Below are positions 50 to 33,825 of a DNA stretch of 36,543 nt, piece after piece (within the stretch, counting starts at the first letter, position 1; each line of letters opens with the position of its first letter). A model generated the notes under the pieces. It was not told where the DNA came from. It saw only the letters and a program-made list of their open reading frames with translations, and made no database searches. The stretch is from a virus. Position numbers and translations under genes: made by a program. The stretch lies in IMG/VR virus record IMGVR_UViG_3300020411_002649, positions 1 through 36,543 of that record. The stretch is one strand, 5' to 3'.

Positions 50-70
50 TGTTAACGATTGCCTTCTTTT

Positions 71-78
71 TATTTATA
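71..78 (-). promoter_or_regulatory. T4-type late promoter core TATAAATA
   Basis: The minus strand carries an exact TATAAATA between the stop codon of the 627-residue gene (83-85) and the ATG at 47-49. The flanks match the other late promoter of this window: both read CCCTATAAATAAAA. By analogy with T4 late promoters, transcription would start about six bases downstream, near position 65. That leaves a very short leader starting almost at the AGAAGG ribosome site. The element would start a new late transcript for the gene that leaves the window. Confidence 0.8.
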
Positions 79-82
79 GGGG

Positions 83-1966: not shown

Positions 1967-1967
1967 A

Positions 1968-3449: not shown

Positions 3450-3472
3450 GATCGTAGTCTTTACAGTGTTAT

Positions 3473-5071: not shown

Positions 5072-5079
5072 ATCCTTAT

Positions 5080-8000
5080 TTAGATGTCATCGAAGATGAG
5101 ATTTGGTGTGAAGTTGCTGATTACAGTAGCACCAGTCTGGACACTCAATACAGCAGAGAGTGAGTAAACTGGGGTTGCACCAGCAGCAGTGATTGCGACT
5201 CTATATTCGTCACCATCGTCTGCCTGTACTGTGTTATTTGTTGTATGGGTTGCTGTGTTAGCACCAATGATGTTGCTCCATGTTTGAGTACCATACTCTT
5301 TCTTCTGCCACTGATAATTCATTGTTTGATCATTAGTTACAGTGGAGACAACTGTGAATGCAGCAGTCTGACCTTGGTTAACAGTTACGTTAACTGGATC
5401 CAGAGTAATTGCGATTGTACCAGCATCAACACCAGCACCACCACCTGTGTATTCTGATCCTTCGCCTGCGAGGACATCAAATCCACCGTTAATTGGACCA
5501 CCTGTAGGAGGTGTAAAGTCATCAGGTACTTCATTATCAACTAAGACTGTTGGTTGTGAATAACCAATACCAGATGTCTTAACATCGATTCTAGTAATAC
5601 CCATCAATGCCTTGATACGAGCATCAAATCCAGAAGAAGAAATAACATCAACATTTGGACGGTCAGTATAACCATCGCCTGGGTTTGTTAGGACTGCATT
5701 TGTTATCTTACCAGAAGTAATGTCTGCAATAGCAGCAGCATTTCTACCCTTAACAGATCCAGTGTATTCAAACGTAATTAAGGAGTTGGAAGACTCAATT
5801 AGAGCAACCTCTCTTGGGAATTCTTCACCCTCGATGTCTAGTCTGTCACCAGCTTCAACTGGTGGTACAACTGTTGCAGCAATAACGTCTGCGTCAGATC
5901 CAATGTATGAGAAACCAACGAAGGTTGATCCCGCACGTGGGACTTCAGCGAAGATGATACGTGATCCAACGATCTCATATGCAACTCCTGGTTCCTGAAT
6001 AATACCATTAAGTGAAACAATGATGTTATTCTCAGGACGTATGACGTTAGAAGAAACACCTTCAGTTAGAGTCAAGGAGTAGAATAATCCAGATCTCTTA
6101 AGGTTGAAGGAAGATCTCAATGAGTCAAACTCGAAGGAGATATCATCTAACTGACGTAACTTACCAACATAGTATCCGATAAATTCAGATCCAATTTCAG
6201 GTGCTTCAGCAAACTGAATCTTGTCAGAGAATGCAACGTAAGAAAGGTTACCACCTGGAGGTTGTAGGATACCATTAACAAATACAAGTAAGTGACCAGC
6301 AGGATCAGGGAAGTATGCTTCACCATTAGAAATCGTGAGATCGAAGTTAGTCTGGACTCCATCAAATCCTCTGAAGTAACGATCAACTCTACCCTCAAGT
6401 GTGCGAGCAGAAGAAACACCACCACCCCATCCGAAGTCAGATTTAAGTGACATGTTATCAACGAATACTCCATTAGCTGCTTCTACCCAGATAGTAGCAG
6501 TAATACCTTGTTGCTCAATTGCAACAACCTTAGCATAAGATTGATAATCTGTTGCAGTGTAGTTAGATACTGCTGCATATATGGTTGGGAAGTTAGATCC
6601 AATTTCAATCTTACCAATATGGTTTCCAGCAAATACCAAATCAGTTAGAGGAGCACCATCACCAACAGGGTTGATATTAGCGATCCAAAGTTTGTGTGTT
6701 TGTGGTGGAGTTGCTGATAGATCTTCTTCCTGATACTTAGTAACAACAGCAGTGAATCCAGGATTCTTCTGTACGGTACCTTGTAGGAGTGATACTTCAT
6801 CACCAACATTGAATGTATCAGATATACCAGTGTCAATGATTGCAACACCTAGATCTAATTCTAGAGTTTGTATTCCATGTAGATACTGATTCAATTGAAT
6901 CTGTTGTCCAGTAATACCCTTAACTTCTAAGATGTAATCAGTGATACTACCGTAAATTATATCTCCAGGTATCCACTCAGTTTCAATAGTTTCAACATCA
7001 ATTGAAATTCTACCACCTTCATTATTGGTTAGTGATCCAGACTTACTTACATAGTTGTCCATGTAACCTTCTAAGGATCCAACCTTACTGAAGAACCAGT
7101 CACCTGTAGCAAATGATCCTTTACTTACATTAATGAGGAATCTATCAGATGGAGCACCAACTGTATGAATTGCATTACTATCTTGACCTACGATCTCATT
7201 AGTATCAGCGATTGTACCAGAAATAGTCTCTAACTTAACAAATGATATACCTGTTTCATCTTGTGGGGTTGTAGTCTGTAGGACATAACCAGTATTTGCT
7301 GGAGCACCATTAACAACAACTTGCTCACCATTAACGAATTGATCATATGTGCCAGGAGTTGTTTCATTAGCAACAGTTGGATAATGAGTATAGATCTTAT
7401 AGACCTCACCTTCAGTTGCTAGGACATTACCAATCTCAGCGTTAGCATTTGATGAAGATCCGAAGATAACATCAGCAGCATTAAATCCACCTTGTATTGG
7501 AGTCTCAGAAGTATATGTTGGGAATGACTCAGCAGTTCTAGTAATACCACTTCTTCTTTCAACAGCAAAGATATGACTTCCAGTATTAGAAGTATCTACC
7601 TGTAGTAATCTAAATCTTCCATCATGGATATAAGAAGCACCAATTTCAAACCACTCAGCAGTAGCAGTTAAGCAATAGAAGTATTCTTGATTAGCTAAAC
7701 CACTTAGAGAAGGTTGAGATGCAGGAATATACTTAAGGATATCACCACGACGGAACTGGTTTCCACGCTCAATTCTAATTCTATATTCTGCACGATCAAA
7801 TCCTACATCAATTTCAGGTGTAAGACTTACCAATTCAGGATCAGTGTTGTAATCAACACCCATCTCATACTTAGTAACTCTATTTGTGCAGTCTGTATTT
7901 GGTACGAATGTTACTCTTGCTTCAGTTGGGAATTGTGACATTTCCAAAGCATACTCAATTGGGTTGAGTGAAGAGTCAATCATAAATTCAACTGCTTCTT

Positions 8001-11000
8001 GATTCCACTCAAGTCTGTTTTCTGGTTGATATACAATGTAACTATTCCATCCAGCATCAGTACCTACAAGATACATTACACTCTTGATGTATTCACGTAT
8101 CTTAGCTAAGCAGTATAATAAATGAGTCCTAGTTACATTAGTAAATGCTATGAAGTTACCCTCACCATCAAACCAATTTTGTGCAAGTCTAAATGATCCA
8201 GCATTACCACCAGTTACTAAGTCATAACGTACTGCCTTAAGAAGATCAGTAGCAAAATCGATAGTAAGATTAGTAGTTGGATAACTTGTTTGAGTTTCGG
8301 TAAATGCTCTCTCAGAAATTGCTTGCTGATTAAAGAGAATCATATTAGCAATAGTCTTGCTGTTTGTTTCTCCAGCACCAAGAGTGTCAGTCATTATATC
8401 GAATAATGTATCAATTGCTGACGTTACATTGTAGCAAGTACCTTCTTGATAACTTGTATTAAAGTTATATGGGAATGTCTGAGTTATAGAAGCAGTATGA
8501 TCAGTATTGCTATTCTTAGCTTTACTGATTGTCTCTATAAGAATATCAGATAGTGTAGCAATAGCAGCAGCAGTCTCTTGACATGTCTGATTCCATGTAC
8601 CTTGATCATCTTGACCACCATTAGAAGAATCATAAGTGATTGATAGATCTCTTACAACGACCTCTGGTGTGTACTTAACGGGCCAACAGATAGGCATCTC
8701 ATATCCTCTATTTGCCACGTTATTAGGATTAGTAATAGCATCCGTTACTAGACTCATTAAGGATGTAATATCATTCTCTACCTCAGCACCTTCTGTACCA
8801 GTGTAAGCAATGTCAACTCTACGTGCTCTCCAGTATTCAAGATCAGTTCTTACAGGCCATGCCCATGATGTTACTGACTGGACAGGTAATATCTTACCGT
8901 CAGCAAAGTCTGTTACACGAGGATATGTGTGGTTAGTAGCATTAGCATCCTGACTACATGTGAATGTTAGTGAATTACTATCAATCGTTACAGCATCATC
9001 TGTGCGTAATGAGTGACCAGCAACAGTTAATGTTAGTTGACCTGTAGTAGGCTCATAGTATGCATCTGTAGGAGTTAATGTTGAACCATCGTTGACATTA
9101 GTAATACAGTTGGATAGAGCAGATACGAAGTTATGCTTATAGTTACCACCCTGTATTAGAGCACCTGAATTAGCATTAACAAATGTATGCTGATAAGTGT
9201 CACCCGCAGGAGATACACCTACGTTAATTCTTATCTTACCATTTTGTATCTTAAGTCCTCTTTCAATACCAGATACAAATGTATGAGTGCCTAGGAATGT
9301 TGATGGGACACCTTTCAGTACTTGTACGTCGAAGTTATCACCATCTACATTAGATACTGCTAACCATTCATTACTTGCATGATCTGTAGGTCTTGGATAT
9401 AAATGAGTAGTCCTATCATCATCAAGATCACATGTAAATCCTAGTGAATAATCCTTAATGTAAACATAATCATTTGCCTTCCATATAGCACCATCTTTAG
9501 CAGATACGAATATATGTTGATAATTACCACCACCAATAACAGCACCAGGTAATGCACTAACGAATGTATGATCGTATAGATCAGCAGTAGTCTGAGCGAT
9601 ATTTACATCGACTGTAATCTTACCACTCTGTCTGTGTAGAGAGTTATTCTTAAATCTCTCGAATGTATGAGTATGGTTACCACCAGCAGTGATAGCACCT
9701 GATGTAGCAGAAGCAAATCTGTGTGTATAGTTACCAGCAACAGTAGATCCTACGTTAACTGTAATTGTAGAATTTTTCTTCTCTAATCCTTCAGAAACAG
9801 CACTTACGAATGAGTGGTTATATTGACCACCACCTCTGATTGTACCTCTGATAACTGCACCAGTTGCAATAGATGCAATCTGATGAGTTGTAGTATTAGA
9901 AGAAACTCCTACGTTAACATCGAATGTATTTGTTTGCTTATTAGAGATTGTTAACCAATCACCAGCAGCTGGATCTTCTGCTCTTGGATAAGCATGATCA
10001 GTCTGGAAATTATCTTCTTGACACTGGAATACAAATGCTCCATTCTTAAGTTGTACCTTATCTCCATTCTCGAATGGGTGACCATTAAGAGTTATTGTTA
10101 ATATACCTGTTCCTGGGACATAAGATGCAGTTGATGGAGTGAATGCATTTTCAGATCTTACGAATTGGTGAAGTGTAGTATTACTTGACTTACCAACATG
10201 TACTGTAATTGTATTAGCAGTAGCAGCAAGAATAGGGACAGACTCATCATAGAATGGATCATCAGCAGTAGCACCACCGTTACCATTAGCACGAGGATAC
10301 TTATGCTCACTACCAAAGTTATCAGCTAAGCACTTGAATACTAGTGACTCTTCCTCAATGTATACTGCTTCATGTGCATACTTAAGTCCATTAGTAACAG
10401 CAGACACAAATGTGTGCGGTGAAGTTACAGACTGAGGTGCAGATGCTAAGACCATTACATCAAATGTATCAGTAGTAATGTTAGTTACTTCTAACCACTT
10501 ATCACTTGGGTAATCAGTAGATCTTGGATATACATGATTGTCTGTAGGATTATCAGCATTAGCAATACCAACTTGGACATCAATCGTAGTCGCAGTTGGA
10601 TTTAATACTGCAAGTTGTTGACCAGATGCAGGGTCAGTAGCACGTGGATATGCGTGGTTGGTTGCATTATTGTCAGCATCACAAGTGAAGGTTACACCAC
10701 CATTAGCAATGGTAACTGTATCAGAAGTTGTTAAACTGTGTGATCCAATTTCCAAGGTCATCACACCTGTAGTTGGATTGTAAGTTGTACCAATTGCAGC
10801 AGTGTATGTGCTACTACCATCGTTAATAGCATTATTAACACCACTTACGAATGCGTGAGTACCAGTAGATGCAGAGCAGTTGAAGGTTATGGATCCATCG
10901 TCAAACTTAACTCTATCACCAATCACAAATCCGTGATCAGGGACAGTAGCTGTTAATATACCAGTTGTAGGATTATAAGCAGCATCAGTAATTGTAGTGC

Positions 11001-26000: not shown

Positions 26001-29000
26001 GCACCTCAACGATAGTACCATATGCACTAACAATATCTTGTCCACCTGCATTGGTAGTAAACTGTTGAATTATAGAATTCTTAGTTAATTTAACATCCTG
26101 TGTAAATGTAAACTCAAGGACATTATCAATCTTCTGATATAATGCATCTCTTAGATAATACTTACTGATAACATCAGCAGTAATTGTAAGTTTCTTACCT
26201 AATGGTGATGGTATTGTAGAAGTCTTAGTGCCATATTCTGTAAGAGCATTACTAAAGGTATATGTCGCAGGATTCATTGTAGATATGGTCTGAGACATAT
26301 CTAAGATCTGTAAACCACCAGCACCAACTTGCCAAGCACTGAATGCTGCTAAACCTAAATCACTCCAAGTTGTAGCAGTCTCAATATCCTCAAAAGCGAT
26401 ATTGGTATACTCAGTTAAACCAGTAAGAGTATATGCACCTCTCTTATCATGCAATCTGTCAAACTTAATAAGAGCAGTATCTGATATAGATGTAGTAATA
26501 GCAATCTCTTCAGTTGGAATAACATATGTGCCATTATAAGGAGCAACATCATCGATGACTAGATCATCAATCCAACCAATCATTGAATTACCAACAACAG
26601 GACCAGAGAATTTACCAGCAACTGTAAGATCTGCAACACTGATATCAGATGTAGATTGGAAGTTACATACAAGGTTACCATTGAAGTATACTTCATACTG
26701 ATACAATCCAAGAGATTCTTCTCTCTTCTGGAATGTAACATGTACCCAAGCACCACCACCAAATAATGTCCAGTTAGTAGCAGTAGCAGAAGTTGCAACC
26801 TCAACTGAGTTTACATAGATAACAACTTTTTCATAGTTACCACTAGTATTATCTCCATCTAATTCTACTTGAATAGAATCACCAGTAATAGGTGTTACAT
26901 CAAATAGTAAAGGTTTTGTTTGAGTTGCATGATGTGCAGTAGCAATAGACATCCATGCTCTTGCACTCCACTCCTTAGTAGTTAAATTATAAGCAGGGAA
27001 TTTAACAGGACATGCTGCACTTAACTTAAGTGAACTTGTACCAAACTTGTATATTGAAGTATCAATAGAAGCATTAGCAGGAGTATGTGGTGTTAGAGTT
27101 GATTTATTCAACTTAGTATGATCAAAATCTAGATCATTTTCATCATTGAAACGATATGATGCTAATTGATCAGACTGTCTACGATCTACAGCAACAATAC
27201 AGTCACCAGAACTATCTACTGTATGAGTCTTAGCTTGTATACCAATATTAACTGTGTCATTAATCTTAGTTTCCTTAATTACAGTACCATCATACTTGAG
27301 GTAATGTACAACAGCATATCTCTCATTCTCAGACTCAATAACATCAGTAACAAGTGTATAGTTACCAAATACGTCTACACTAATACCAGCATGTTGAATA
27401 CCATCAACATTACCACTAATAGTTACTGACTTACTCCATTCCCATCCAGAATTAGCAGTAGCGATTGGGAATTTATTAACTTGGACTTTCTCATACTTCT
27501 GAGTAGCACCATTGTAGAAGTCCCAAACAAGGATAGCATCTCCATATTCATCAACAGTGAATTGTGGATTTCTTACATATCCACCAACTGCTGGTACCTG
27601 TCTAATATACTCAATTTCTAGGTTTGCACCATCAAAGAAGAATACACCAAAGATACAGTCGTTATTTTGATCATTAATACCAACAAAGAAGAATCTATCA
27701 TCAGATATCCACTTAATCTGATTGATCATCTCCGAATCATCAGCAGATGCAATCTTTCTCTTCTCTACAAGGTCACCGTCAAGATCACACTGAATAACCC
27801 ACATATCGTTAGGATCAGGTGAGTTACTATCTGTATAACCTGCAATATAAATTCTCTTCTCTTGGTCAAGTGCTATAGTTGTTACCCAGTCCCTTCTAGA
27901 AAGACCTGAGATACCAGCAATTGCCTTCTGCCACTGTAGAATACCATCAGGAGCATTAGCATTGTTAAAACCAGACTTATACTGTCCTAGCCATATATCA
28001 GGATTGTACTGAGAATTATTAGGGTCATATGTATGACCAACGATGTAAATGACATCATCTTCTAATGACTCGTCAATATACATCTTAACGAATTCTGCTT
28101 TCTTAACACCTGAATTAGTAGGTAGTAGATTTCTCTCCCAAACCTTCTGACCTAAATCATCAAACTTAACAAGGAATGCTGCTTGATCACCATCTGTTTC
28201 TAAAACACTACCACAAACATATGTGTAACGATCAGCAGTAGTCCAAGTATCATGTATACTAACTTGACCAGCTGCTTCTTTATATTCTGTTATCCAATAA
28301 CGAGTCTTCTTATACTGTTGTGGATGAGATACTCTAATCTGAGGAGGATTGTCAGAATCGTATCCATTACCAGAGTTAATGATATTAACCTTGTTAATCT
28401 GTCCAGTATTCTCTAGTACCAACTGCAATTCAGCATCTTTTCCAGAATCGGTAATCAACTCAAATGTAGGTGGAATATCTTCGTTATATCCTGTACCTGC
28501 TTGGACTATATTAATTCTCTCAACACCAGCAACAACCTTAACTCTATAGGTTTTAGAGGTATTATCAATTACAGGTCTTGAGTTTACAATGATTTCATCT
28601 TGCTGTCTTAATTCATGACCTTCAGCAGTAGTAATTTTACCATAAGGACGGTCACCAATAACTTCTTTCTGATAACCAATAATTCTTTGTCCTTTAACAG
28701 ATTCAATAAGTGCAGATGCACCAAATCCACCAGTACCTTCATTATCGAAGAATACGGTGTCATTTACCTGATAAGAAACACCTGGGTTTTCAACAACGAA
28801 TCCATCAATCTGAGCATTCTCAAACTGGGTAGTTGTTTCAACTTCAATGTCAACTCTAGACTCTTCTGATACTCTTGGGAAGTAATCATAAATTTGTAGA
28901 GTTGCCTCTTCAGACATCTCTAATATTTCTTGTTGCTCATTAGCATCAATCAAACCATCATTGTTAGAGTCTTGTATTTCAAAGATAATAGGATATCCTT

Positions 29001-32000
29001 CTATCTCAGTAGTAAGGACATCTGCTTCCTGGTTTGGTTGACGATCAACATCAATATCAACATCAGTATATGGATCTCTATAACGTACAACACCATCAGG
29101 GATATTCTCCTGTGTTGCTGCTTGAGAGAAGTTCCAGTTATCAGGTAGAGAGTTGAATTGTGGTCCCATGATATATGGGAATTCAGCAAGACCTGCATCA
29201 CTAGCATCGATAGTTATGAAGTAAGCATATATGCCATCTGGATAATCAGGTGTCTTACAGAAACGACCATTGTAGTTGTCTAGATCACCAGACTGGAAAT
29301 CATAATAATAGTCATCGATGAATGTACCAGCAGCATAGGTATCAATAGGAGGACCATCTACCCTAGCAGGGTTAGGATTAGTTGTCGCATCATATACAAC
29401 ATTTTCCTTCAATTTAAAGGATGTACGCATCCTTCTAATACCACTATTCTGGTCAGTTGGATCAATGTATCCATAAGGACCATATATTGGGTTACCATCA
29501 AATGCCCAACCAATAATAGGTGAGTGCTCAAAGTTGGATGATACTTCTTGGAATTCCTGTGTAACAGGATTTAAGAATACGTTATCACCAACAACATATC
29601 TTAATTCTTTAGGATCTGAGAGGTGAGCATATTCACCACCAAATTGGTTGTTATATCCAGTAAATACATATCCTCTTGCAAAGTCATATTTGTCTACTAA
29701 TTCATACTGAAGGTTTTTATTCCACTGGTAGACTGTAGGTTGGAATGACGCTAATTGACCTACTGCTTCGAGTCTGACGGTTGTTAAACCTTGTGTATAC
29801 CCAATACCCTTGTTGACGATAGTTACACCTAAAACACGTCCTTTATCTTCTCCAATTGTACCGATAGTTGCTTTAGCAATAGCACCGAAACCATCACCAT
29901 TAATGATTATATTTGGTGCAGTTGTATAGGAACTACCAGAGTTAATAATAGCGATAGATACGATTCTACCATTAATAACAATAGGTTGTGCTAAAGCACC
30001 TTCACCAGAGTTAACTTTAATAGAAGGAAGTGAAGTATATCCAGTACCAAAATTAGTGACGTTTACACTCTGAATTGGACCTCTAACATTAGCAGTTGCA
30101 GTAGCACCAGTACCCCCACCACCAGTAATAGAAACTAAAGGTTGTGTGGTATATCCTGTACCTGGTTGCTCAACTAGAATTCTTGTTACCCTACCACCAG
30201 TAATAACTGCCTGTGCAGTAGCACCACTACCACCACCTCCAACAATAGAAACTAATGGAGAAGATGTGTATCCACTACCTTCAGTATCCATATCAAAGGA
30301 AGTTAGACTACCATTAACTACAACTTCAGCAGTAGCACCTGATCCACCTCCCCCAGTGATCTCTACGTTGGGTTTAGCACCAGCATCGTATGATTCACCA
30401 ACATTGGTAACTGCGATGCTAGTAAGAGGACCATACTGGATAAATTCTCTAGATTTGTAAGACCAGATAGAAACACCGTTTACCCAAGCACCAATTGGTG
30501 TTCCTGGGTCAATTGTCTTTCTTTCAGATATAGTTTGGACATTTCTAGGGAATCTGAGTAATTTCCTCTGATTTCCTGGAATAAGAGCAGATCCTGTAAA
30601 TGGACCTATTTTGTAGTTAGGAAGTCCAGATGCAGCGACATAAACGTAATCATCGTTGAAAAACGAGTTTTGGATGTTTGTAGTGAATTCACTAACAACA
30701 TTATTGATAGAAGTCGTATCAGACTTACCTCGGTTAAGGTCAACCGATAATAGGATGTTTCCTTCAGGTACTAGCTCGGTAGGAGTATTAATCTGATATG
30801 AGAAAGTAAATTGGTCAATTCTTGATGTTACAGTGAATGTACCGTTGTAAACAACTGGGTTTGCACCATATATCGTAACTTGGTCAGAAACCAATAATCC
30901 GTGAGGGTTACTACAGGTTACAGTTGCAGTTTGGTTGTTAACACCACCAGGATTGATAGTATCAACCTGAATCAACTTCTTGACGTTATATAACCAAGAT
31001 TGGAGTCTTAATTCCTCAGCAGTCGATCCGAGGTTTGCAACCTTCAGTTTATCACCAGTAAGGTAGTAACTACCAGTATCGTTTAGTACTGTGGTACCTG
31101 CTTCAGCAATACCTAAAATCCTTAACTTACATTCCCCTACAGTGCCTTTATTGACATAAACGAAAATATCGGACTGAATTATGGTACCAGGATCCCAATC
31201 TTCGACGATTCCATTCTTAGACCTAGTACACTCTATGAACTGGTTAAGAGACTTCTCTTTATACTGGACTTGCTCTACATCATTGATTCTAATAGTACCA
31301 TTACGCTCGGGCCATCCAATTGTGCTGTCAACCGTGATTATCTGCCCAGTAGTGGTTAAAGGCTCAACTAGACGAGTTTTATAAGGTATGATGAAGCTAC
31401 CAACTAAGGTTTCTTCGGATATTGCCAATTCATAGATGGTGTCAGTACCTTCAATGATAGTAATGACGTTTTCGATCAATGCAGACGCAGCAGTAACACT
31501 AGTGTCCACTTCATCGGCATATTGGTTAACTTCTGAGTCAATTAGGTTTGCAGGATCACCTTCTATCAATTCTGCACGAAGAATGGTGTCTACAACCCAA
31601 GTTGCATGAGATGGACTTATAATTTCATCTTTTGGATAGTAAAGATCAACATCTTCACCAAATAAGATTTTAAAGAGGTATTGAGTTGCTAAGTTAGTAC
31701 CTTTAGAGATATAGAAGTCACTAATATTCTTAATAACCTGTACAGGGTTAACTTTAGCAAAATCGATGTCTAAGGTTGGAAGATATTGCCTTCTAAACTT
31801 ATCAAAGACTTCTTTAATGAATAAAGAGTCAAGATTGGTTACATGAGCACCAGCAACGTGATTTGACTGTCTTAATGCTGCTTCTCCAGCATATATCTCA
31901 TTATGAAGGTTATCGTAGTCAACAGGTCCAGAAACGCCTCTGGAGCACCCTAGGAAGGCACTAGAGGTGTATCCTGATCCATTCTCTAGAATATCGAATC

Positions 32001-33825
32001 CAGTAACTTGATCAAACCCAACATCTACAGATGCCCTTGCTGCTTTTGGTTCTGCGATGTATACAGTTGGTGGAAACTCGGTAGAGTAACCAGATCCAAA
32101 ATTAGTAATATTAATATCTGTTATTTCGCCATTAAAGATAGTTGCAGCAGCAGTTGCCCCTGTACCACCTATAGGTTCTCCATATCCGTCTTTTCTATCA
32201 TCTACAATATAAACTGAAGGTGCATCGGTATATCCTTGTCCACCAGTCAACATTTCAATATTTGTGACTGATCCAGATGCTACAGTAACGTCTAGTACCT
32301 GAGCACCAATTGGGTTGATAATTGCCACCCTAGGAACAGAAGTATATCCACGACCTCTGTTTGTGACAGTAATTTCATAAACTTGTCCGTCTTGATTGAT
32401 TCTACTTATAGCTTGAGCGTTAATTCCACCATCAGGTGCTTCATCAATGTATACGATAGGTGGATTGCTGTATCCACTACCCATTGTCTTAACTTCAATA
32501 GATCCTACGTCAATTCTACCTTCAGAGTCGATTGTAGGAGCACCAATGGTTGCTCCACCAGGATTCTTGAATGATATAGCAGGAATGAAGTCATAACCAC
32601 TACCACTGTTAGTAATAGTCAAAGAATCAACCATTCCAGTCACATCATCTACTGTGAGACTTAATGTTGCTGGTGTACCATTAGGATCTGAAGGATTTCC
32701 AACTACAGGGATTGGAGGGTTGTAAGAAGTGTATCCTTGACCACCATCGATCAAATTGATGTCTTTAATACCACCAATTAGAGCTCTTGCTGTAGATTCC
32801 TTACCAGTCTTACTTGTAATAGAAACTTTAGGTGCAAAGTCTAATCTATACTTAGATCCACCTTCTTTAGGAATTAAACTGGTTATTTCACCAGCATCAC
32901 TAACTGAAGCAATTGCCTTGGCTCCTGAACCATAAGAAGGAGCATTATATTCGACAGACCTAATATGAATATCATCAGCAGCTCCGATTTCATTTTTGAA
33001 AACAACTTTATCTTGAAAAACGGTAAAATCGGTATATGGTTCTTGTAAACGACCATTTTTGTTAATTATTAGTCCAATTTCGGAAGTTGGAGTATAAGAT
33101 TGTGTATTAATCCTTAATGGGTAAATTTTAGTGTTTTGCCACTCCTGATAAGGAATAGCATCCATAGTTTTGATCGTTTGATCCGAATATCCGACCAGAT
33201 ATGTAATTCTTGTAAATTCAGAGTCATCAGCACCTGTTTGATCTCTAGGTGCTTCTGCAAAACGTATATTAAACCCTTCAACGAAATAATCGACTCCAGG
33301 AACCTTCATATCATTGTAAGTAATGACAATTAGGTGTTCAGCAGAAGGTGGAGCAACAGGAGTGCCTAAAAAGCTTAATGGGAAGTTTTTAAGGGTGCCA
33401 TCAAAGAGTGTAAAGGGGTTTTCTAGTTGTTGCTTCTTCTTATTGAATTGTGGATAAGAGATACCAGGAGTAATGATAACATCAGGACCACGAGTAACAG
33501 ATTCATAGTAAATTACCTCATTATCAATCATTATGGAGCCATTTTGCTCCTGGAACCCATCTATACCTTCAATTTCAATCTTTTCATCGTACAGACCAAT
33601 ATCCTTGAGCAATTTAGTTGCACTTGCAAGTTGCTCAGAAGTATAATTATCCAGATCAAGATATCTCAGTAAATTATTGAGAATATCGTAAGGACGACCT
33701 GTTTTCTCTTGAGACTTATAGTACTCAAAGAGGAAATTAACTAATTGTCGGTCTTCTTGACGAATAAACTCAGGTAACTGATTTTCGACCCTATCAGAGA
33801 CGTTGATATTCTTTGTAATCGGCAT
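5080..33825 (-). CDS. Giant mosaic virion protein (9,581 aa) in the gp7 position
   Basis: One open frame of 9,581 codons without interruption, between the gp6-like gene and two fibre-like genes. The first 60 residues are charged and helical (FIRQEDRQLVNFLFEYYKS). Residues 665-755 contain a block with FRRQYLPTLDIDF, NISDFYISKGT and ILFGEDVDLYYPKDE, which I recall from large structural proteins of marine T4-like phages; it may be the baseplate anchor. The rest is a string of beta and helical modules listed separately: GYTxxP repeats, YHYH, EF-hand loop, propeller, three LamG-like domains, helical modules, 27 YPR units and a C-terminal Ig domain. No signal peptide or membrane helix is seen. T4 gene 7 (1,032 aa) occupies this slot, but I see no convincing gp7 match beyond position. 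The ATG is five bases after the gp6 stop with a poor ribosome site, suggesting coupled translation. Structural role: confident; exact role (long fibre, whisker or tail decoration): unknown. Confidence 0.92.
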   Translation of the reverse strand: MPITKNINVSDRVENQLPEFIRQEDRQLVNFLFEYYKSQEKTGRPYDILNNLLRYLDLDNYTSEQLASATKLLKDIGLYDEKIEIEGIDGFQEQNGSIMIDNEVIYYESVTRGPDVIITPGISYPQFNKKKQQLENPFTLFDGTLKNFPLSFLGTPVAPPSAEHLIVITYNDMKVPGVDYFVEGFNIRFAEAPRDQTGADDSEFTRITYLVGYSDQTIKTMDAIPYQEWQNTKIYPLRINTQSYTPTSEIGLIINKNGRLQEPYTDFTVFQDKVVFKNEIGAADDIHIRSVEYNAPSYGSGAKAIASVSDAGEITSLIPKEGGSKYRLDFAPKVSITSKTGKESTARALIGGIKDINLIDGGQGYTSYNPPIPVVGNPSDPNGTPATLSLTVDDVTGMVDSLTITNSGSGYDFIPAISFKNPGGATIGAPTIDSEGRIDVGSIEVKTMGSGYSNPPIVYIDEAPDGGINAQAISRINQDGQVYEITVTNRGRGYTSVPRVAIINPIGAQVLDVTVASGSVTNIEMLTGGQGYTDAPSVYIVDDRKDGYGEPIGGTGATAAATIFNGEITDINITNFGSGYSTEFPPTVYIAEPKAARASVDVGFDQVTGFDILENGSGYTSSAFLGCSRGVSGPVDYDNLHNEIYAGEAALRQSNHVAGAHVTNLDSLFIKEVFDKFRRQYLPTLDIDFAKVNPVQVIKNISDFYISKGTNLATQYLFKILFGEDVDLYYPKDEIISPSHATWVVDTILRAELIEGDPANLIDSEVNQYADEVDTSVTAASALIENVITIIEGTDTIYELAISEETLVGSFIIPYKTRLVEPLTTTGQIITVDSTIGWPERNGTIRINDVEQVQYKEKSLNQFIECTRSKNGIVEDWDPGTIIQSDIFVYVNKGTVGECKLRILGIAEAGTTVLNDTGSYYLTGDKLKVANLGSTAEELRLQSWLYNVKKLIQVDTINPGGVNNQTATVTCSNPHGLLVSDQVTIYGANPVVYNGTFTVTSRIDQFTFSYQINTPTELVPEGNILLSVDLNRGKSDTTSINNVVSEFTTNIQNSFFNDDYVYVAASGLPNYKIGPFTGSALIPGNQRKLLRFPRNVQTISERKTIDPGTPIGAWVNGVSIWSYKSREFIQYGPLTSIAVTNVGESYDAGAKPNVEITGGGGSGATAEVVVNGSLTSFDMDTEGSGYTSSPLVSIVGGGGSGATAQAVITGGRVTRILVEQPGTGYTTQPLVSITGGGGTGATATANVRGPIQSVNVTNFGTGYTSLPSIKVNSGEGALAQPIVINGRIVSIAIINSGSSYTTAPNIIINGDGFGAIAKATIGTIGEDKGRVLGVTIVNKGIGYTQGLTTVRLEAVGQLASFQPTVYQWNKNLQYELVDKYDFARGYVFTGYNNQFGGEYAHLSDPKELRYVVGDNVFLNPVTQEFQEVSSNFEHSPIIGWAFDGNPIYGPYGYIDPTDQNSGIRRMRTSFKLKENVVYDATTNPNPARVDGPPIDTYAAGTFIDDYYYDFQSGDLDNYNGRFCKTPDYPDGIYAYFITIDASDAGLAEFPYIMGPQFNSLPDNWNFSQAATQENIPDGVVRYRDPYTDVDIDVDRQPNQEADVLTTEIEGYPIIFEIQDSNNDGLIDANEQQEILEMSEEATLQIYDYFPRVSEESRVDIEVETTTQFENAQIDGFVVENPGVSYQVNDTVFFDNEGTGGFGASALIESVKGQRIIGYQKEVIGDRPYGKITTAEGHELRQQDEIIVNSRPVIDNTSKTYRVKVVAGVERINIVQAGTGYNEDIPPTFELITDSGKDAELQLVLENTGQINKVNIINSGNGYDSDNPPQIRVSHPQQYKKTRYWITEYKEAAGQVSIHDTWTTADRYTYVCGSVLETDGDQAAFLVKFDDLGQKVWERNLLPTNSGVKKAEFVKMYIDESLEDDVIYIVGHTYDPNNSQYNPDIWLGQYKSGFNNANAPDGILQWQKAIAGISGLSRRDWVTTIALDQEKRIYIAGYTDSNSPDPNDMWVIQCDLDGDLVEKRKIASADDSEMINQIKWISDDRFFFVGINDQNNDCIFGVFFFDGANLEIEYIRQVPAVGGYVRNPQFTVDEYGDAILVWDFYNGATQKYEKVQVNKFPIATANSGWEWSKSVTISGNVDGIQHAGISVDVFGNYTLVTDVIESENERYAVVHYLKYDGTVIKETKINDTVNIGIQAKTHTVDSSGDCIVAVDRRQSDQLASYRFNDENDLDFDHTKLNKSTLTPHTPANASIDTSIYKFGTSSLKLSAACPVKFPAYNLTTKEWSARAWMSIATAHHATQTKPLLFDVTPITGDSIQVELDGDNTSGNYEKVVIYVNSVEVATSATATNWTLFGGGAWVHVTFQKREESLGLYQYEVYFNGNLVCNFQSTSDISVADLTVAGKFSGPVVGNSMIGWIDDLVIDDVAPYNGTYVIPTEEIAITTSISDTALIKFDRLHDKRGAYTLTGLTEYTNIAFEDIETATTWSDLGLAAFSAWQVGAGGLQILDMSQTISTMNPATYTFSNALTEYGTKTSTIPSPLGKKLTITADVISKYYLRDALYQKIDNVLEFTFTQDVKLTKNSIIQQFTTNAGGQDIVSAYGTIVEVPNENAILEEDRGVGNKYKVGKIYGNFNNTDRFKTDVGDVNQIAGTYFQVEEPEIPWAAGVSVTVGEQRYYDKKIYQSQGTGTTGTIPPVHTGGVVSDGLINWVFIDDAGKFTVDLTQHPYPMPQYLNQDMPEWDNGKLYVVGQRVWHKLNVYEVATGGAGVSGTTPPTHTTGAASDGGVTWDHVSTSESIATYARTLPYDLGNNYTVQIVEIQPGSLYIPEDVVSINAGNITEAEDRKSVEISGFASVKKIRVTVRLEKDIIRNAVNNTNLVYFTSNSPHGFKVGDIIFSEGFQGDQFNGSFFIDQVIGSREYTLGIRSTAVSEPAFNNNAIASVNIYAKHPTLEFTRNHQYVFDVSDTSNLNYYLSFSQDNQYKLEYSFNNITREGTPGVPLGAGNYPFVKFSVLGDVTNISYYFDPSRTGDDSPVGENSFIDVITTPYEGTFSVAEVITDTEFRFQLLKEPEKTNAEVGTDEFDQVYSYYSTTSTRAVGPINTIKLVSPGGFYQKLPIISDIASFRQIEKIVVNDGGTEYAPGVYYDVPVAGDGEGGKATITVEFDDTVGSGTITGAAVADPGKGYTTASIDIDAIPGILGSTLAGSGGSVTVVIPSEGSGASVFLTGTNIGKIKRLKNNEFGFGYSHDYTLKPEITFPVNLQLFNTSILSEIKITDPGAGYTSTPAVVIEGGGGSGAEAEAVVKNNRLSEIIIKNSGAGYSSEPTVTLKSEFNYVVNLDLNYLQFNFPHGITSGAEVQFRSDDIGSTEGELPKPSTAGLTSLVEGQIYYAIAGEAAGLESDQLRFGLTQASALAGSYVTFLTQGSGRQTLLTEVFGGKATAVVETSRFLEGEDVFQGSNVETATARGKVSTNTGWQIGPKILKIVDYTGDWAEGEKVTGEISKASGVIDNFSIARGVLNIGSLTKTPGRFIDDVGKPSEIVQKIQDSFFYQNFSYVVQSQIPITEWKTQVLENNHPAGFNMFGQLQLTGGKDVSGRKIGTEFTKQVNINNYSNVNQITSFGAAQPIYTDYNNTEVLFRKKRLTSSEEILTSIVKKLDSVEDQFDGIKKSFPITVEGETVIVKQDQLMITLNGIIQAPGESYQIVGGNLVFDEPPKPPSKVNYRILGITPTPIYRIALYDGFGTSNYGIFPTIGQQVQGAQSDVVATVIDSGTNHIDVINITGGSFQLNEQIKRGELFAALVESVTLVNSPTIFRFGEGITNLEGDTAYIEETNVDTDGNVTDRVVVSKTSGTPRFETGIFDLRLNEFIYSASSKIAGQITYIAPYSDPINNEVVDTLVINRGTTFFGLLFERLVSLTNPNVILDDISASSITPTKLYDSSNRINADFLNFEEVRTTEVEYSQLTGGVLAEGMILRNKKAFFGNPRSTFHGNAANRYLDAKRNISNNKQEIIDFAEAAIAIDYPDYYFPSDVITNSWSRFKDAYRFIQKNKSLIAGMAFDDMKTQYPSSSIPSDAKCKRDIEFFVDAVSIDIYAGGNRYSRKFCQQFFDTNGTFTYVSAQSAETRFAFEKARDRMKVALANGYSGTINAVNSGDSWTAYQDLTITADPSPNDNYGTSGTNTNNADPANCTDVQAAIDTLHEFIDEVLNNASLNDLPAETQGTYSPHQEKCRRDLGYMIDAIANDVGQGGNYNTVEFTKKFFDDAGVPLTNGIVGEEAEAVHAFTAAGTLMHRAINNLMYWKDLSGVGYNLNDPTTYSGGVAPANRYDANYASGNNQDINNCANVKSYIDTLRAIATTAMTAGNLNNVNALSSISDGTFVANETVRTTKIGYKDKGTGQFITGNQIKGMTSGALFQALGVNSGLKWLFAGPVTGTFTAGEYITNSTLTFTNCTQSVIVKKAELSGTKSIYLPTNHSLTAPASEDFAFGTGDFTIEGWFRAGTNTQSQCLFDFRRLSATQGLRIIQDQQAIKVYNGTTLGITSGNVVTTTGTWMHIAVSRSSGVTQLYINGAQLGGNYVDTNDYLYAALYIGQDFNGANKWDGHIDNIVIKKGVGDYTTGFQAPTQVDYSQQNIVFGLDGEAPFILSTTETYATYSGQRSSSATAKTIDYANLAVITEDVDLGRQEYRDCADIIDLNGAYIAEEAVGRMKAAFSDFNIKGDDPQNNSYGGTDTCIRDTKDYILGAIVKDLREDGNYHTLFAARTYMSVGGELNFIGQEILQSLYTWNEVLKLAKEIITTTSSTLTGTYTTRYRIPNNFSSPASQAVQDTIDTLGTDLLMVISPNEQRFREGGFQLWKNRDYIAEETEGYIQDKYQAEIDTVTYDFLEIPGTGSAGCKNDIKTHIIPAVIADLATGGNYQTQRIITQYLDIQDNILHVEHELSALNDALDFAKMLSMKAVNNLLLSPGEVASGLLDNDGNALNVPGWAQEEYYIPQWTARTAYRDSEIVIDSEGYPTTSQRANNDRYLDAADLLWNNRAIIAKEVVSTMNDLSKYENLQIPGGHVNCEDDVLDMIEAMVHDLRFDCNEKTIDAAKLYIEPEDNSLKHVEGEWEASITVIKILRDVVTMTMRNAFGRDYVDGESLQSIPVQTYNQNPKDYIYKQCGDAIDGNIRYIAEQAVAAGLVQYPNLAIPGGPVNCVHDVTDIIRSMVWNLKYGGTNWMQYASEFYTTYNGNLDHVTNASAETNWIINKAKEYAIRAMKGQVITNDAGWTVDQRFYDAVPKPTTSLLNVTFDGPVTGEYNNLMTRSFKLGEDKISTTDTGTGLVTGEDAVFRLVTKLPSSPIDACLFEAGDSTSGVWFGIRDGGTYLRLRAGDGSNSYAGGANTSSDNGLALLDLQISNLSQYFDDGDHEIVFQIQIGGNLTAGAGAVKLWIDGVAQGSATTPSGYTGLTGGSGIFASANYAGFGIQGGNALASGESATVNTFTVNVGPAPTIAYDISHAEYDSSTGDLVMDVGSHNHTEGTFLRLITNSINFTCDMDNNASVHSYPRSGDPAGNAAVEVLETYGEEYKVNGATYKPNTGIMTLTVPNHGMSTHNTYTAKNSQYDPDSGVLIITVDDHGFKTGDQVRIENGSLVFTCAQDNHATKHGYPRQKDPAGDQWLLVESIINKDNFTVNVGSTPKVEYDVSGATYDQNTGELEMDIGQHRFVGATTHVASYAEYQADKGLLKLTVSGHNISPGDQIQIMENSMTFTCSMDNHYSNHVYPRSSDPCTRKWLDVVESDIPGGTFTVNVGASPIKGFVPTAATFDTATGALVMTIGTGHGLSVGTNLKLAQNSLSFTCDMDDHATVHSYPRSKDPVHNEPIPIVAVSADTVTVNVGMTPAVNYDVTGATFTPNNGQLVLSTDRKFSFRDSSIHSISGATYNGQTGLMRLTIVDHGFGEGDFVKIADGGVSFTCSMDNHNSVHAYPRSTDQMSGKWMDVRNVSKDQFDVHVGKTPTIPFTISAAEFTPATGEMKMTIGDHDLRAGNSIRLAKESIVFTCFLDAHNSTHAYPRSNGNDPFYNKPLPILYDGTPLTATAGTSYNPTTGIMTITTSVNHGLQEGDSVKFKLDSLTFRCDEDGQSSDHTYPRATDPYANRWQRVLGSNLTANTFDVQVLSYAPSTNTTTHVFQTAMANGITKKDGTITVNVANGAISDQSQHIYIPNTGYTPTNINHNPTTGMMTVTINGHGFENGDMIKIADNALTLTCALDDHGSTHTYPRPGDPASGSWLKVENVDVDTFDVKVNTIIPQSNTSTHLFVSAVANSITRAQIISGGIYDHTYSTSAVDCLRHAGDSIRLAPDSLTFRCDADGQSSDHTYPRSAVTTHTPTDVTYDPNIGHLKFTVPNHGFLPYSYIKIATDSLTFTCKKDNDATNHTYPRASDPVAGKWVMIHDVSGNEFSVEVLDVIPSTNTTIHSFVGASSNCITHKKDHFYDTNIPIYELGKTTHSPTNASYNPTAGTMTITMSNSFTAPQVYTPTSAIFDPSTGILRTTLSGHNIKNGDMILIDDGALTMRCDEDSQATDHNYPRPTDPVSGKWLKAFNVGSTTFDLQVGNLYGNAAISNTTTHVVNSIASNSFHRAKDFVMIDKDAITFQCTKDNNATNHTYPRVTDPTYGQWLPISNVSNISFDVHVGKSGINDVYDHTFVSFANNSLKRQTGTITLDVGNGQITNPTTHSFQSASSNAIIGGGTYTHTFVPSTQAVTPTDVNYNPTTGWMTVTVPDHGFMEGESIKIGTNSLVFTCLQDSNQTNHSYPRNGDPVYDKWLTIHNVTDDTFDVKVLDETPSTNVTLHTFVSALNGAIIRATVATGGNYTHKFIAPAQLTPTNAAYDPTTGIMTLTVADHGLKNGGRIKVQDGFVTFTCDQDSDQTNHAYPRASDPYSDEWMTVKNVTKDTFDVQVLFNIPSTNQTTHAFVSAVPNSITVATLMKGNDSIKIAADALTFTCSKDGNSTEHTYPRVSDPAYNNSLRIIDDGVTRWTPTGATYTPSTGVLAMTLNNHGFSNGDYIRIEDYALDMSCDMDNDSSTHAYPRGTDPISGKWIQISNVSQNGFDIDVGTTAAVSYTPTDVDYTPTTGDMEITIGEHDLKVGQSVQIATGGITLECDQDGYSSTNAYPRNIIDTFTPTGADYDGTTGYLTITSNGHGLDTGSLVKIDDNAITLRCTMDGSTNDKTYPRSSDPISGKWKPIEYIDANTYKIFVGKSEFKSFDPQNVEYNASNGNMVITVGPDHGITTAHSVYINRESMCFTCAQDGHGSDHFYPRPNGTGGASGDDPAYADAVDVIAVTDSTITVNVNPSPSGASNHAHIFKPAVGKTPTNVTYSPASGLMTITIVGHGMINGEQIMIEDNSLIFTCNKDDNATEHAYPRHGDPASNKWLTIQNRTDDTFQVQVLDSAPSTNTSAHTFKRAKKHSVKRGSIRAGGSFTHSFQSFASNGLSAKRDRAYDHAIEIKAVGHAKYTATGAAYNAATGILTLTVANNPFSNGEHVRIADNSLVMTCDMDNNATNHSYPRVTDPASHKWLEVSNVSGNNFDVNVGTTPRANYLVSAATYEPTTGDMVLTIGSHNFKGGGSTTITDAAYNPTTGILTATVPDHGFVIGDRVKFDDGSITFNCSASTGTHAFVSGVNNAINDGSSTYTAAIGTTYNPTTGVMTLEIGSHSLTTSDTVTIANGGVTFTCDADNNATNHAYPRATDPASGQQLAVLNPTATTIDVQVGIANADNPTDNHVYPRSTDYPSDKWLEVTNITTDTFDVMVLASAPQSVTSPHTFVSAVTNGLKYAHEAVYIEEESLVFKCLADNFGSEHKYPRANGNGGATADDPFYDESVPILAATANTITVHVGKSSNTTLHQFVRSENAFTPSTASYVPGTGILTITLNGHPFENGDKVQLKNGAFVFQCQEDNFQTDHAYPRAEDPAAGDWLTISNKQTNTFDVNVGVSSNTTTHQIASIATGAVIRGTIRGGGQYNHSFVSAVSEGLEKKNSTITVNVGSTVAGNYTHRFASATSGAITAGGNHTHTFERFKNNSLHRQSGKITVDVNIAQTTADLYDHTFVSALPGAVIGGGNYQHIFVSAKDGAIWKANDYVYIKDYSLGFTCDLDDDRTTHLYPRPTDHASNEWLAVSNVDGDNFDVQVLKGVPSTFLGTHTFVSGIERGLKIQNGKIRINVGVSPAGDTYQHTFVNANSGALIQGGNYKHNFVSALSNCITNVNDGSTLTPTDAYYEPTTGQLTLTVAGHSLRTDDAVTIDSNSLTFTCSQDANATNHTYPRVTDFADGKILPVQSVTSWAWPVRTDLEYWRARRVDIAYTGTEGAEVENDITSLMSLVTDAITNPNNVANRGYEMPICWPVKYTPEVVVRDLSITYDSSNGGQDDQGTWNQTCQETAAAIATLSDILIETISKAKNSNTDHTASITQTFPYNFNTSYQEGTCYNVTSAIDTLFDIMTDTLGAGETNSKTIANMILFNQQAISERAFTETQTSYPTTNLTIDFATDLLKAVRYDLVTGGNAGSFRLAQNWFDGEGNFIAFTNVTRTHLLYCLAKIREYIKSVMYLVGTDAGWNSYIVYQPENRLEWNQEAVEFMIDSSLNPIEYALEMSQFPTEARVTFVPNTDCTNRVTKYEMGVDYNTDPELVSLTPEIDVGFDRAEYRIRIERGNQFRRGDILKYIPASQPSLSGLANQEYFYCLTATAEWFEIGASYIHDGRFRLLQVDTSNTGSHIFAVERRSGITRTAESFPTYTSETPIQGGFNAADVIFGSSSNANAEIGNVLATEGEVYKIYTHYPTVANETTPGTYDQFVNGEQVVVNGAPANTGYVLQTTTPQDETGISFVKLETISGTIADTNEIVGQDSNAIHTVGAPSDRFLINVSKGSFATGDWFFSKVGSLEGYMDNYVSKSGSLTNNEGGRISIDVETIETEWIPGDIIYGSITDYILEVKGITGQQIQLNQYLHGIQTLELDLGVAIIDTGISDTFNVGDEVSLLQGTVQKNPGFTAVVTKYQEEDLSATPPQTHKLWIANINPVGDGAPLTDLVFAGNHIGKIEIGSNFPTIYAAVSNYTATDYQSYAKVVAIEQQGITATIWVEAANGVFVDNMSLKSDFGWGGGVSSARTLEGRVDRYFRGFDGVQTNFDLTISNGEAYFPDPAGHLLVFVNGILQPPGGNLSYVAFSDKIQFAEAPEIGSEFIGYYVGKLRQLDDISFEFDSLRSSFNLKRSGLFYSLTLTEGVSSNVIRPENNIIVSLNGIIQEPGVAYEIVGSRIIFAEVPRAGSTFVGFSYIGSDADVIAATVVPPVEAGDRLDIEGEEFPREVALIESSNSLITFEYTGSVKGRNAAAIADITSGKITNAVLTNPGDGYTDRPNVDVISSSGFDARIKALMGITRIDVKTSGIGYSQPTVLVDNEVPDDFTPPTGGPINGGFDVLAGEGSEYTGGGAGVDAGTIAITLDPVNVTVNQGQTAAFTVVSTVTNDQTMNYQWQKKEYGTQTWSNIIGANTATHTTNNTVQADDGDEYRVAITAAGATPVYSLSAVLSVQTGATVISNFTPNLIFDDI
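5110..5435 (-). other. C-terminal Ig-like domain of the giant protein
   Basis: About 110 residues near the C-terminus carry the Ig-like pattern DPVNVTVNQGQTAAFTV, YQWQKKEYGTQTWSNI and DGDEYRVAITAAG, closing with a final strand before a short tail. The layout (QGQTAxF, YQWxK, then Y(R/K)(V/C)) parallels the Ig domain in the downstream 532-residue protein (SVNAGQTATFSV, FQWYKS). Such domains are common on phage surfaces, where they are thought to bind carbohydrates weakly. Confidence 0.75.
5895..6370 (-). repeat. Two tandem NGIxQxPG beta modules
   Basis: Two adjacent modules read VFVNGILQPPG...IQFAEAPEIGSEFIGYY and VSLNGIIQEPGVAYEIVGS.IIFAEVPRAGSTFVGF. Related copies occur elsewhere in the same protein, near 22640-22860 (MITLNGIIQAPGESYQIVGG) and, more diverged, near 33180-33380 (VPGVDYFVEGFNIRFAEAP). 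The module recurs in phage fibre proteins and is probably a small beta-sandwich. Confidence 0.7.
8050..8840 (-). repeat. Helical module after the YPR array
   Basis: This segment (aa about 8328-8592) returns to the helical, Cys-containing style of the aa 3970-5280 region. It has NQTCQETAAAIATLSDILIE, then YNVTSAIDTLFDIMTDTL, then LLKAVRYDLVTGGNAGSF. The (A/V)(V/L).YDL..GGN signature is the same as in the earlier modules. The 27-unit YPR array therefore looks inserted between, or expanded within, a run of helical modules. Confidence 0.6.
8868..17345 (-). repeat. Tandem array of 27 C-x2-D-x5-H-x-YPR protein units
   Basis: About 2,800 residues (aa about 5493-8319) are built from units of roughly 100 residues. 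The consensus, pieced together by eye, is Y.PTTG.(M/L)T(L/V)T...HG(F/L)..GD.(I/V)KI...(S/A)L.FTC..D....T.H.YPR..DP....(KW or P)L.(I/V).NV, followed by a beta strand ending in a VNVG or VQV segment and often (T/S)HTFVSA. I count 27 YPR motifs. Two flavours alternate in the first part of the array: one with DP...(G)KWL..NV and one with DP..N.P(L/I)PI..V...T(V/I)TVNVG. Cys, Asp+3 and YPR are nearly invariant; His+9 is Asn in one unit and Lys in another. The units are divergent at the DNA level, so they are old or diversified duplications. Confidence 0.88.
17385..17975 (-). other. Third LamG-like (concanavalin-like) domain
   Basis: About 195 residues (aa about 5285-5478) just before the YPR array show the jelly-roll pattern: LLNVTFDG, FRLVTKLPSSPIDACLFEAG, GVWFGIRDGGTYLRLRAGDG, DGDHEIVFQI and VKLWIDGVAQGSAT. 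The order (ends-of-sheet strands, then a W-IDG loop) fits laminin-G-like domains, which often bind glycans. Confidence 0.6.
17985..21905 (-). repeat. Run of about six helical modules with GGN-type signatures
   Basis: Residues about 3974-5280 contain repeated helical units, each with a motif such as (R/Y)(F/Y).DA..L...N...IA.E(A/V) followed by C..D(I/V)...(I/V).A(V/I)..DL..(G/D)GN. Examples are CKRDIEFFVDAVSIDIYAGGN, CRRDLGYMIDAIANDVGQGG, CIRDTKDYILGAIVKDLRED and CEDDVLDMIEAMVHDLRFD. Each unit has one or more conserved Cys. Units are separated by a LamG-like domain at 19955-20440. I have seen this style in marine phage structural proteins, but know no assigned function. Confidence 0.7.
19955..20440 (-). 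other. Second LamG-like domain, between helical modules
   Basis: This is the clearest LamG-type match of the window. The protein (aa about 4461-4623) reads SIYLPTNHSLTAP, FGTGDFTIEGWFRAGT, GTWMHIAVSRSSGVTQLYIN and KWDGHIDNIVIKKG, in the canonical order of the concanavalin-like fold. It may bind glycans on the host surface; that is inferred from the family. Confidence 0.8.
23840..24440 (-). repeat. Third cluster of GYTxxP glycine-rich repeats
   Basis: Residues about 3128-3328 include VNDGGTEYAPGVYYDVPV, ADPGKGYTTASIDID, TDPGAGYTSTPAVVIEGGGG and KNSGAGYSSEPTVTL. They are the same family as the repeats at 29755-30435 and 31945-32950 and in the 627-residue protein, showing reuse of one module in at least four places. 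Confidence 0.75.
25448..25838 (-). repeat. Two W...GTIPP/GTTPP carbohydrate-binding-like repeats
   Basis: Two tandem units of about 50 residues read WAAGVSVTVGEQRYYDKKIY...GTIPPVHTGG..SDGLINWVFID and WDNGKLYVVGQRVWHKLNVYEV...GTTPPTHTTG..SDGGVTWDHV. The pattern (W..G..y..G..v......Y......G..g..PP.H..G..sDG...W) resembles short aromatic-rich binding repeats found on phage fibres and related to CBM5/12-type folds; that relation is a guess from pattern. Confidence 0.6.
26500..27130 (-). other. First LamG-like domain
   Basis: Residues about 2232-2442 show FGTSSLKLSAACPVKFPAY, EWSARAWMSIA, IQVELDGDNTSGN, VIYVNSVEVATSA, WVHVTFQKRE and EVYFNGNLVCNF, ending with MIGWIDDLVIDD. The arrangement is typical of a laminin-G/concanavalin-like jelly roll placed directly after the propeller-like region. 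Confidence 0.7.
27150..28335 (-). other. Beta-propeller-like region
   Basis: About 390 residues (aa about 1831-2225) show repeated four-strand blades of the type seen in bacterial SBBP/NHL-like propellers: RYTYVCGSVLETDGDQAAFLV, DDVIYIVGHTYDPNNSQYN, KRIYIAGYTDSNSPDPND, DDRFFFVGINDQNN, YGDAILVWDFYNG and GNYTLVTDVIESE. I count about six blades. The (I/V)Y(I/V)(V/A)G(Y/H)T signature is the best evidence. Confidence 0.65.
28936..28971 (-). other. EF-hand/dockerin-type calcium loop
   Basis: Residues 1619-1630 read DSNNDGLIDANE. Aspartate/asparagine at positions 1, 3 and 5, glycine at 6, isoleucine at 8, aspartate at 9 and glutamate at 12 are the full canonical calcium-loop set. A helix-like stretch (QQEILEMSEEATLQIYDYF) follows. 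Only one loop is seen, as in dockerin-half or single EF-hand-like loops in extracellular proteins. Confidence 0.7.
29130..29645 (-). other. YHYH-type domain, copy lacking the YHYH tetrapeptide
   Basis: Residues about 1394-1565 of the giant protein read HSPIIGWAFDGNPIYGPYGY, RRMRTSFKLKE, DDYYYDFQSGDLDNYNGRF, YPDGIYAYFITID and EFPYIMGPQFN. These match the complete copy downstream step by step, but the N-terminal Cys/His loop with YHYH is replaced by QEFQEVSSNFEHSP. If the loop is a functional centre, this copy has kept only the scaffold. Confidence 0.75.
29755..30435 (-). repeat. GGGGSGATA/GYTxxP repeats, second cluster
   Basis: About six units of 35-40 residues (aa about 1130-1357), such as GSGYTSSPLVSIVGGGGSGA and GTGYTTQPLVSITGGGGTGA. 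Each pairs a GxGYTxxP turn with a Gly-rich loop, consistent with a stacked beta-solenoid or beta-prism stalk. Confidence 0.8.
31570..31840 (-). other. Conserved ILFGEDVDLYYPKDE block of the giant protein
   Basis: Residues about 662-752 are helical and highly charged: FIKEVFDKFRRQYLPTLDI, VIKNISDFYISKGTNLATQY and LFKILFGEDVDLYYPKDEI. They interrupt the beta-repeat regions. From memory this block recurs near the N-terminus of large structural proteins in marine T4-like phages, so it may mark the baseplate-proximal part. That role is inferred. Confidence 0.55.
31945..32950 (-). repeat. GYTxxP/GGTGATA repeats, first cluster
   Basis: About eight units (aa about 292-627) with phrases such as GSGYSNPPIVYIDEAP, GRGYTSVPRVAIINPIG, GGQGYTDAPSVYIVDD and GSGYSTEFPPTVYIAEP. 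Unit length is about 40 residues. The same module appears in the 627-residue protein, so the two genes probably exchanged or copied this segment. Confidence 0.8.

Follow-up and report, generated by a model that had tools for sequence, protein, structure and literature searches.

A giant gene in the gp7 slot of a probable marine cyanophage, with the predicted anatomy of a baseplate anchor joined to a fiber-like arm

The window analyzed here, the whole 36,543-base contig of an IMG/VR virus record, is dominated by one gene, whose product is probably a baseplate wedge protein of the gp7 type, from a marine T4-like cyanophage (Kyanoviridae), enlarged to a single chain of anchor plus arm. The gene begins with ATG and contains no internal stop, in a window free of ambiguous bases. 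Its 28,746 bases make up 79% of the total, in agreement with the initial annotation, which had described an uninterrupted frame of 9,581 codons filling almost four fifths of the window. The predicted protein has a mass of about 1.04 MDa and a pI of 4.7. Its domains and its neighbors are listed in Table 1.

Table 1. Positions of the giant gene, its predicted domains and the adjoining genes in the window (residue numbers refer to the giant protein)
Feature	Position	Strand	Basis
Giant virion gene in the gp7 slot, 9,581 aa	5080..33825	-	ORF; PHROG 701 E=0
gp25-like baseplate wedge subunit, 137 aa	35929..36342	-	PHROG 261 E=4.2e-48
gp6-like baseplate wedge subunit, 698 aa	33831..35927	-	PHROG 219 E=1.7e-200
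N-terminal helices of wedge anchor, residues 1-112	33490..33825	-	BLAST to slot gp7s
Beta-rich insertion 1, G-x-G-Y-T repeats, residues 130-620	31966..33438	-	AlphaFold2 pLDDT about 90
Conserved anchor, DFY-x-SKGT...LFK-x-LFGE motif, residues 640-800	31426..31908	-	PDB-wide profile search
YHYH domain (insertion 2), residues 1396-1541	29203..29640	-	Pfam PF14240 E=1.8e-28
Beta-propeller (SBBP) repeat, residues 1973-2001	27823..27909	-	Pfam PF06739 above cut-off
LamG/ConA-like domain, weak, residues 2274-2422	26560..27006	-	Pfam PF13385 E=2.6e-5, under gathering score
Probable gp7 C-terminal motif YQxFSYV...W...HPAGF, residues 3531-3591	23053..23235	-	Aligned with T4 gp7 HPVGF at 884
Six helical repeats, about 115 aa each, residues 4033-5270	18016..21729	-	HMM from 4 repeats
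LamG/ConA-like lectin domain, residues 4476-4608	20002..20400	-	Pfam PF13385 E=5.4e-17
Array of 26 HYPR units, residues 5495-8331	8833..17343	-	All-beta repeat; invariant C, D, YPR, D
Conserved C-terminal region, residues 8344-9581	5083..8796	-	47-53% identity to P-TIM40, S-WAM1, S-SZBM1
Downstream virion structural protein, 532 aa	3473..5071	-	PHROG 25852 E=4.5e-221
Baseplate wedge-tail fiber connector, 493 aa	1968..3449	-	PHROG 677 E=7e-136

Read along the minus strand, a gp25-like gene is followed by a gp6-like gene and then, five bases after the gp6 stop, by the start of the giant. This is the slot of T4 gene 7, which directly follows gene 6, and both the slot and the roughly ninefold excess over T4 gp7 (9,581 versus 1,032 aa) had been recognized correctly in the initial annotation. 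The 532-aa virion protein downstream keeps its position in P-TIM40, S-WAM1, P-RSM6 and S-SZBM1. Residues 256-379 of this protein match PHROG 701, the family of the giant, at positions 1422-1552, and residues 405-502 match the Ig-like PHROG 613, as the giant does, so that the two proteins have domains in common. A 627-aa protein further downstream (83-1966, minus strand) matches the wedge profile PHROG 708 and additionally PHROG 701 at 1124-1300, which points to a distribution of beta-repeat domains among several wedge genes. The gp8 gene lies directly after the slot gene in S-SM2 and P-HM2 and after further wedge genes in close relatives, a position outside the contig in the present case. In a promoter and terminator scan of positions 1-6500, promoter scores were no better than those of shuffled sequences.

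A chance open frame is ruled out by the length alone and by purifying selection, dN/dS being 0.09-0.35 in all nine sections of the giant gene in comparisons with five related contigs. Residues 621-1300 have the lowest ratio (0.09-0.16) and the repeats the highest (0.27-0.35); purifying selection thus acts along the full length, with the core evolving most slowly and the repeats fastest. An assembly join is likewise ruled out, since contig 3300030333_005390, from a different metagenome, matches the window gap-free across 27,928 bp at 99.91% identity (24 mismatches), and a further sequence (L006) is 100% identical across a 6,959-bp overlap. Complete frames in ten related contigs, for which overlapping pieces were joined by contig coordinates without a single conflict, measure 9,560, 9,559, 9,553, 9,914, 9,914, 9,461, 9,458, 9,792, 9,489 and 7,842 codons; with the last set aside, the nine other fully sequenced frames range from 9,458 to 9,914. 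In another relative the contig stops inside the frame, after 9,228 codons; three more span 9,580-9,922 codons, with 3.7-4.1 kb of each span unread. In principle an assembler might be misled by repeats; no support was found for an assembly artefact or an artificial fusion of genes, however, and against the gap-free second contig, the relatives with uninterrupted frames of like length and the selection in every section, such an origin is exceedingly improbable.

Two of the related contigs have peculiarities of their own. Contig 3300006329_000009 (L054, L089, L143, L191) differs from the window by a dS of about 1-1.5 over the first 1,300 codons, and in residues 3621-8343 its values nearly equal those of contig 3300020467_000005, a pattern that suggests recombination within the giant gene. 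Contig 3300006332_001381 (L037, L183), the source of the 7,842-codon frame, has an N-terminus 87% identical to that of the window; a pattern search did not find the HPAGF motif in it, and another arrangement follows a similar anchor.

The giant belongs to a gene family known before from marine cyanobacterial viruses, in which it is an extreme case. Its match to PHROG 701 (“virion structural protein”) reaches 5,516 bits over residues 1-4900 and 1,983 bits over residues 4682-9581 (E=0). In tblastn searches, the first 1,000 residues retrieved 479 phage records, nearly all from cyanophages, followed by Sinorhizobium, Methylophilales and Pelagibacter phages. Together with the photosystem gene psbA on a 199-kb related contig that carries a 9,914-codon frame, this makes a cyanophage the likely source. 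The closest isolates have slot proteins of 8,573 (P-RSM6), 7,351 (P-TIM40), 6,737 (S-WAM1) and 6,619 aa (S-SZBM1), which bears out the mention in the initial annotation of very large structural frames in marine T4-like phages. Elsewhere the slot protein is smaller, with 896 aa in Melnitz, 1,007 in phiM12, 1,032 in T4, 1,454 in S-CRM01, 4,156 in S-SM2 and 4,454 in P-HM2. The giant is among the longest frames of its family, in which the longest isolate gene examined has 8,573 aa and metagenome relatives reach 9,914-9,922.

Very large proteins, about whose novelty the initial annotation was unsure, have already been described for this slot, both as PHROG 701 and in virions of S-SZBM1 (PMC9146016). 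In purified virions of that phage, mass spectrometry recovered 71 peptides (13.5% coverage) of the 724-kDa orthologue S-SZBM1_208, a protein that carries no HYPR unit, so that the measurement concerns a HYPR-less relative (PMC9146016). The literature on the size of the gene yielded only the S-SZBM1 table of virion proteins and labels reading “baseplate wedge initiator”. The domain anatomy of the giant is the new part, for which no description was found in the literature searched.

The evidence for a gp7-type core comes from three segments. The N-terminal helices resemble, in BLAST, the slot proteins of S-SM2 (gp7, E=1e-16), S-CRM01 (E=5e-13) and phiM12 (gp7, E=5e-5); an HMM comparison of this segment with T4 gp7 itself gave no significant match. 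When a 10-sequence profile of the anchor was compared with every PDB sequence, two matches emerged, both of them T4-type gp7 (5hx2_A, E=1.5e-4; 9f4a, E=4.8e-4), at residues 729-759. Run against 500 shuffles and a small T4 database, the same profile gave 6.5e-7 for gp7 and 0.57 for the best shuffle. A BLAST chain leads in the same direction, from residues 670-894 to phiM12 gp7 (2e-14) and from phiM12 gp7 to T4 gp7 (3e-5). The third segment is the probable C-terminal motif, whose HPAGF at residue 3576 resembles the HPVGF of T4 gp7 (884), as do motifs in S-CRM01 (1356) and Melnitz (660). The HMM of this motif matches T4 gp7 with E=7e-5, a value equalled by 1 of 500 shuffles, and the order of the motifs is collinear; the presence of a C-terminal gp7 motif is thus suggestive. 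Should the motif prove genuine, insertions of about 500 and 2,700 residues would divide the gp7 core. Homology of the giant to gp7 is supported by the anchor profile, and the gp7 of P-HM2 displays N-terminal helices, anchor, motif, helical repeats and HYPR units in the same order as the giant. A second P-HM2 gene annotated as gp7 (baseplate wedge subunit; L352 25551-32822) matches none of the five anchor, motif and repeat HMMs, and its name looks doubtful.

According to a published proposal, cyano- and pelagimyophages lack gp7 and have VrlC in its stead (PMC7029224), and the giant would then be an unrelated structural protein that occupies the slot. The Pfam gp7 domain models PF21427, PF21428 and PF21456, none of which matches the giant, are in keeping with such a loss, and they favor the term gp7-like over a strict equation with T4 gp7; the same models likewise miss the slot proteins of phiM12, Melnitz and S-CRM01. 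The AlphaFold2 model of the N-terminus is good in the beta insertion only, and a Foldseek search of this model, in which the anchor helices have low confidence, found no significant match in the PDB. Against an unrelated protein stand the anchor profile, with its exclusive match to gp7 in the PDB, and the genomes of P-HM2 and S-SM2, which carry a gp7-slot gene and VrlC together, so that VrlC is no simple replacement. We therefore regard the loss of gp7 as distinctly unlikely, and the anatomy of the giant conflicts with the published view.

Beyond the core, residues 3620-9581 extend the chain with helical repeats, a LamG domain, the HYPR array and the conserved C-terminal region. The last of these contains one further helical repeat, a weak one (8490-8593), and closes with an Ig-like segment (9469-9562; PHROG 613, E=1.8e-8). 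The length of a HYPR unit is roughly 85-120 aa, and the C, D, YPR and D positions are invariant in 51 unit pairs. An AlphaFold2 model of two units is all-beta (pLDDT 88.5), and its comparison with PDB structures gave no convincing match (best E 0.007, low probability, TM about 0.2). Units number 26 in the window and 26-30 in those relatives whose arrays are complete, against 18 in P-RSM6, 5 in P-TIM40, 3 in ACG-2014d and none in S-WAM1 and S-SZBM1; the extra size of the giant is mostly due to this array. Within the array, units are 39-62% identical to their own best match. They correspond to those of close relatives largely one to one and in order, mostly at 60-88% identity and with few gains or losses, and show no one-to-one correspondence with units of P-RSM6 or P-TIM40, from which it appears that the array predates this group and has been turned over between genera. 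HYPR-like units occur in 321 phage records, all from cyanophages or marine viruses and several named tail fiber. In bacterial and archaeal genomes none was confirmed with one 125-aa query and a seed-pattern method, which is weak evidence of absence; the HYPR alignment was too variable to serve as a search query.

The extension has counterparts among proteins named as tail fibers, names that in these cyanophages are annotations rather than tests. HMMs of the HYPR and helical repeats match the “tail fiber” of P-HM2 (3,677 aa) and the “short tail fiber” of ACG-2014h, both of which contain these repeat modules without a gp7 core, and a structure search of viral models also brought up the “long tail fiber” of S-SCSM1 and the “tail protein” of S-WAM2. 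Since the helical and HYPR modules make up tail-fiber genes of other cyanophages, the extension is most likely a fiber-like arm. The gp7-type core (residues 1-112, 640-800 and probably 3531-3591) would then be seated in the wedge beside gp6, with the beta-rich domains inserted in it projecting from the baseplate, and the roughly 6,000 residues that follow, with their helical repeats, their LamG lectin domain and the array of 26 HYPR beta units, would form the arm. Long tail fibers are reported to be absent in S-SZBM1, S-WAM1, P-RSM6 and P-TIM40 (PMC9146016), and in such phages the arm may carry the sites of host contact. T4 gp7 is a monomer present in six copies per baseplate (PMC3004832); by analogy, one giant per wedge would give six per virion, with a combined weight of about 6 MDa. 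A single-chain appendage of anchor, stalk and binding domains had been proposed in the initial annotation. The anatomy fits this proposal in its gp7 core, fiber-type repeats, YHYH domain, propeller and LamG domain, and for its remaining parts, the contact with a receptor and the intact chain in this phage, we rely on inference.

The same domain order would also accommodate a precursor whose cleavage in the course of assembly yields a gp7-like wedge protein (about residues 1-3,620) together with at least one separate fiber protein. A natural boundary lies just after the probable gp7 C-terminal motif, near residues 3,591-3,620, and in other cyanophages the modules beyond it occur in separate tail-fiber genes. 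The S-SZBM1 orthologue, however, was recorded as one 724-kDa entry, in a table without peptide positions (PMC9146016), and we judge cleavage to be unlikely. Somewhat more credence, if still well short of an even chance, is due to a passive role for the HYPR array, as a spacer that fixes reach or length while binding resides in the C-terminus or in the YHYH or LamG domains. Relatives with a conserved core and C-terminus have anything from 0 to 30 units, and S-WAM1 and S-SZBM1 lack the unit altogether. Interchangeable spacers would not be expected to behave as these units do, which differ from one another and yet largely keep their order and sequence in close relatives.

Under the favored reading, that of a gp7-type anchor continued into an arm, the giant suggests a way for phages without long tail fibers to reach their hosts. 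We tentatively propose that a tail fiber has been fused onto and into the wedge protein, so that a chain of about 1 MDa per wedge may serve as both hub and host-recognition arm and replace a separate long-tail-fiber system, its reach and specificity evolving as repeat units are gained or lost and diverge. With repeat numbers in this one gene running from 0 to 30 units, the role of the array can be tested by a comparison of existing isolates.

Among known systems, T4 gp7 shares with the giant the slot after gp6, the helical DFY-KG-LFK-E anchor and probably the HPxGF C-terminal motif. The giant differs in being nine times longer, with large insertions and an extension, and the T4 Pfam gp7 domains V, VI and the helical domain were not detected in it. 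The giants of P-RSM6, P-TIM40, S-WAM1 and S-SZBM1 (“virion structural protein” or “baseplate wedge initiator”, PHROG 701) have the same slot and domain order and are 54-61% identical to that of the window over long stretches, but are shorter (8,573, 7,351, 6,737 and 6,619 aa versus 9,581) and poorer in HYPR units (18, 5, 0 and 0 versus 26). The tail-fiber genes of P-HM2 and ACG-2014h have the helical and HYPR modules in common with the giant; they lack the gp7 core and are separate genes elsewhere in the genome. Finally, the beta-barrel of phage endosialidases weakly resembles part of the HYPR unit (PF12195, E=2.9e-6, below cut-off; phi92 endosialidase 4hiz_B, prob 0.93 but E=0.17), whereas the half of the unit with C, D and YPR lies outside the resemblance and no catalytic domain was seen.
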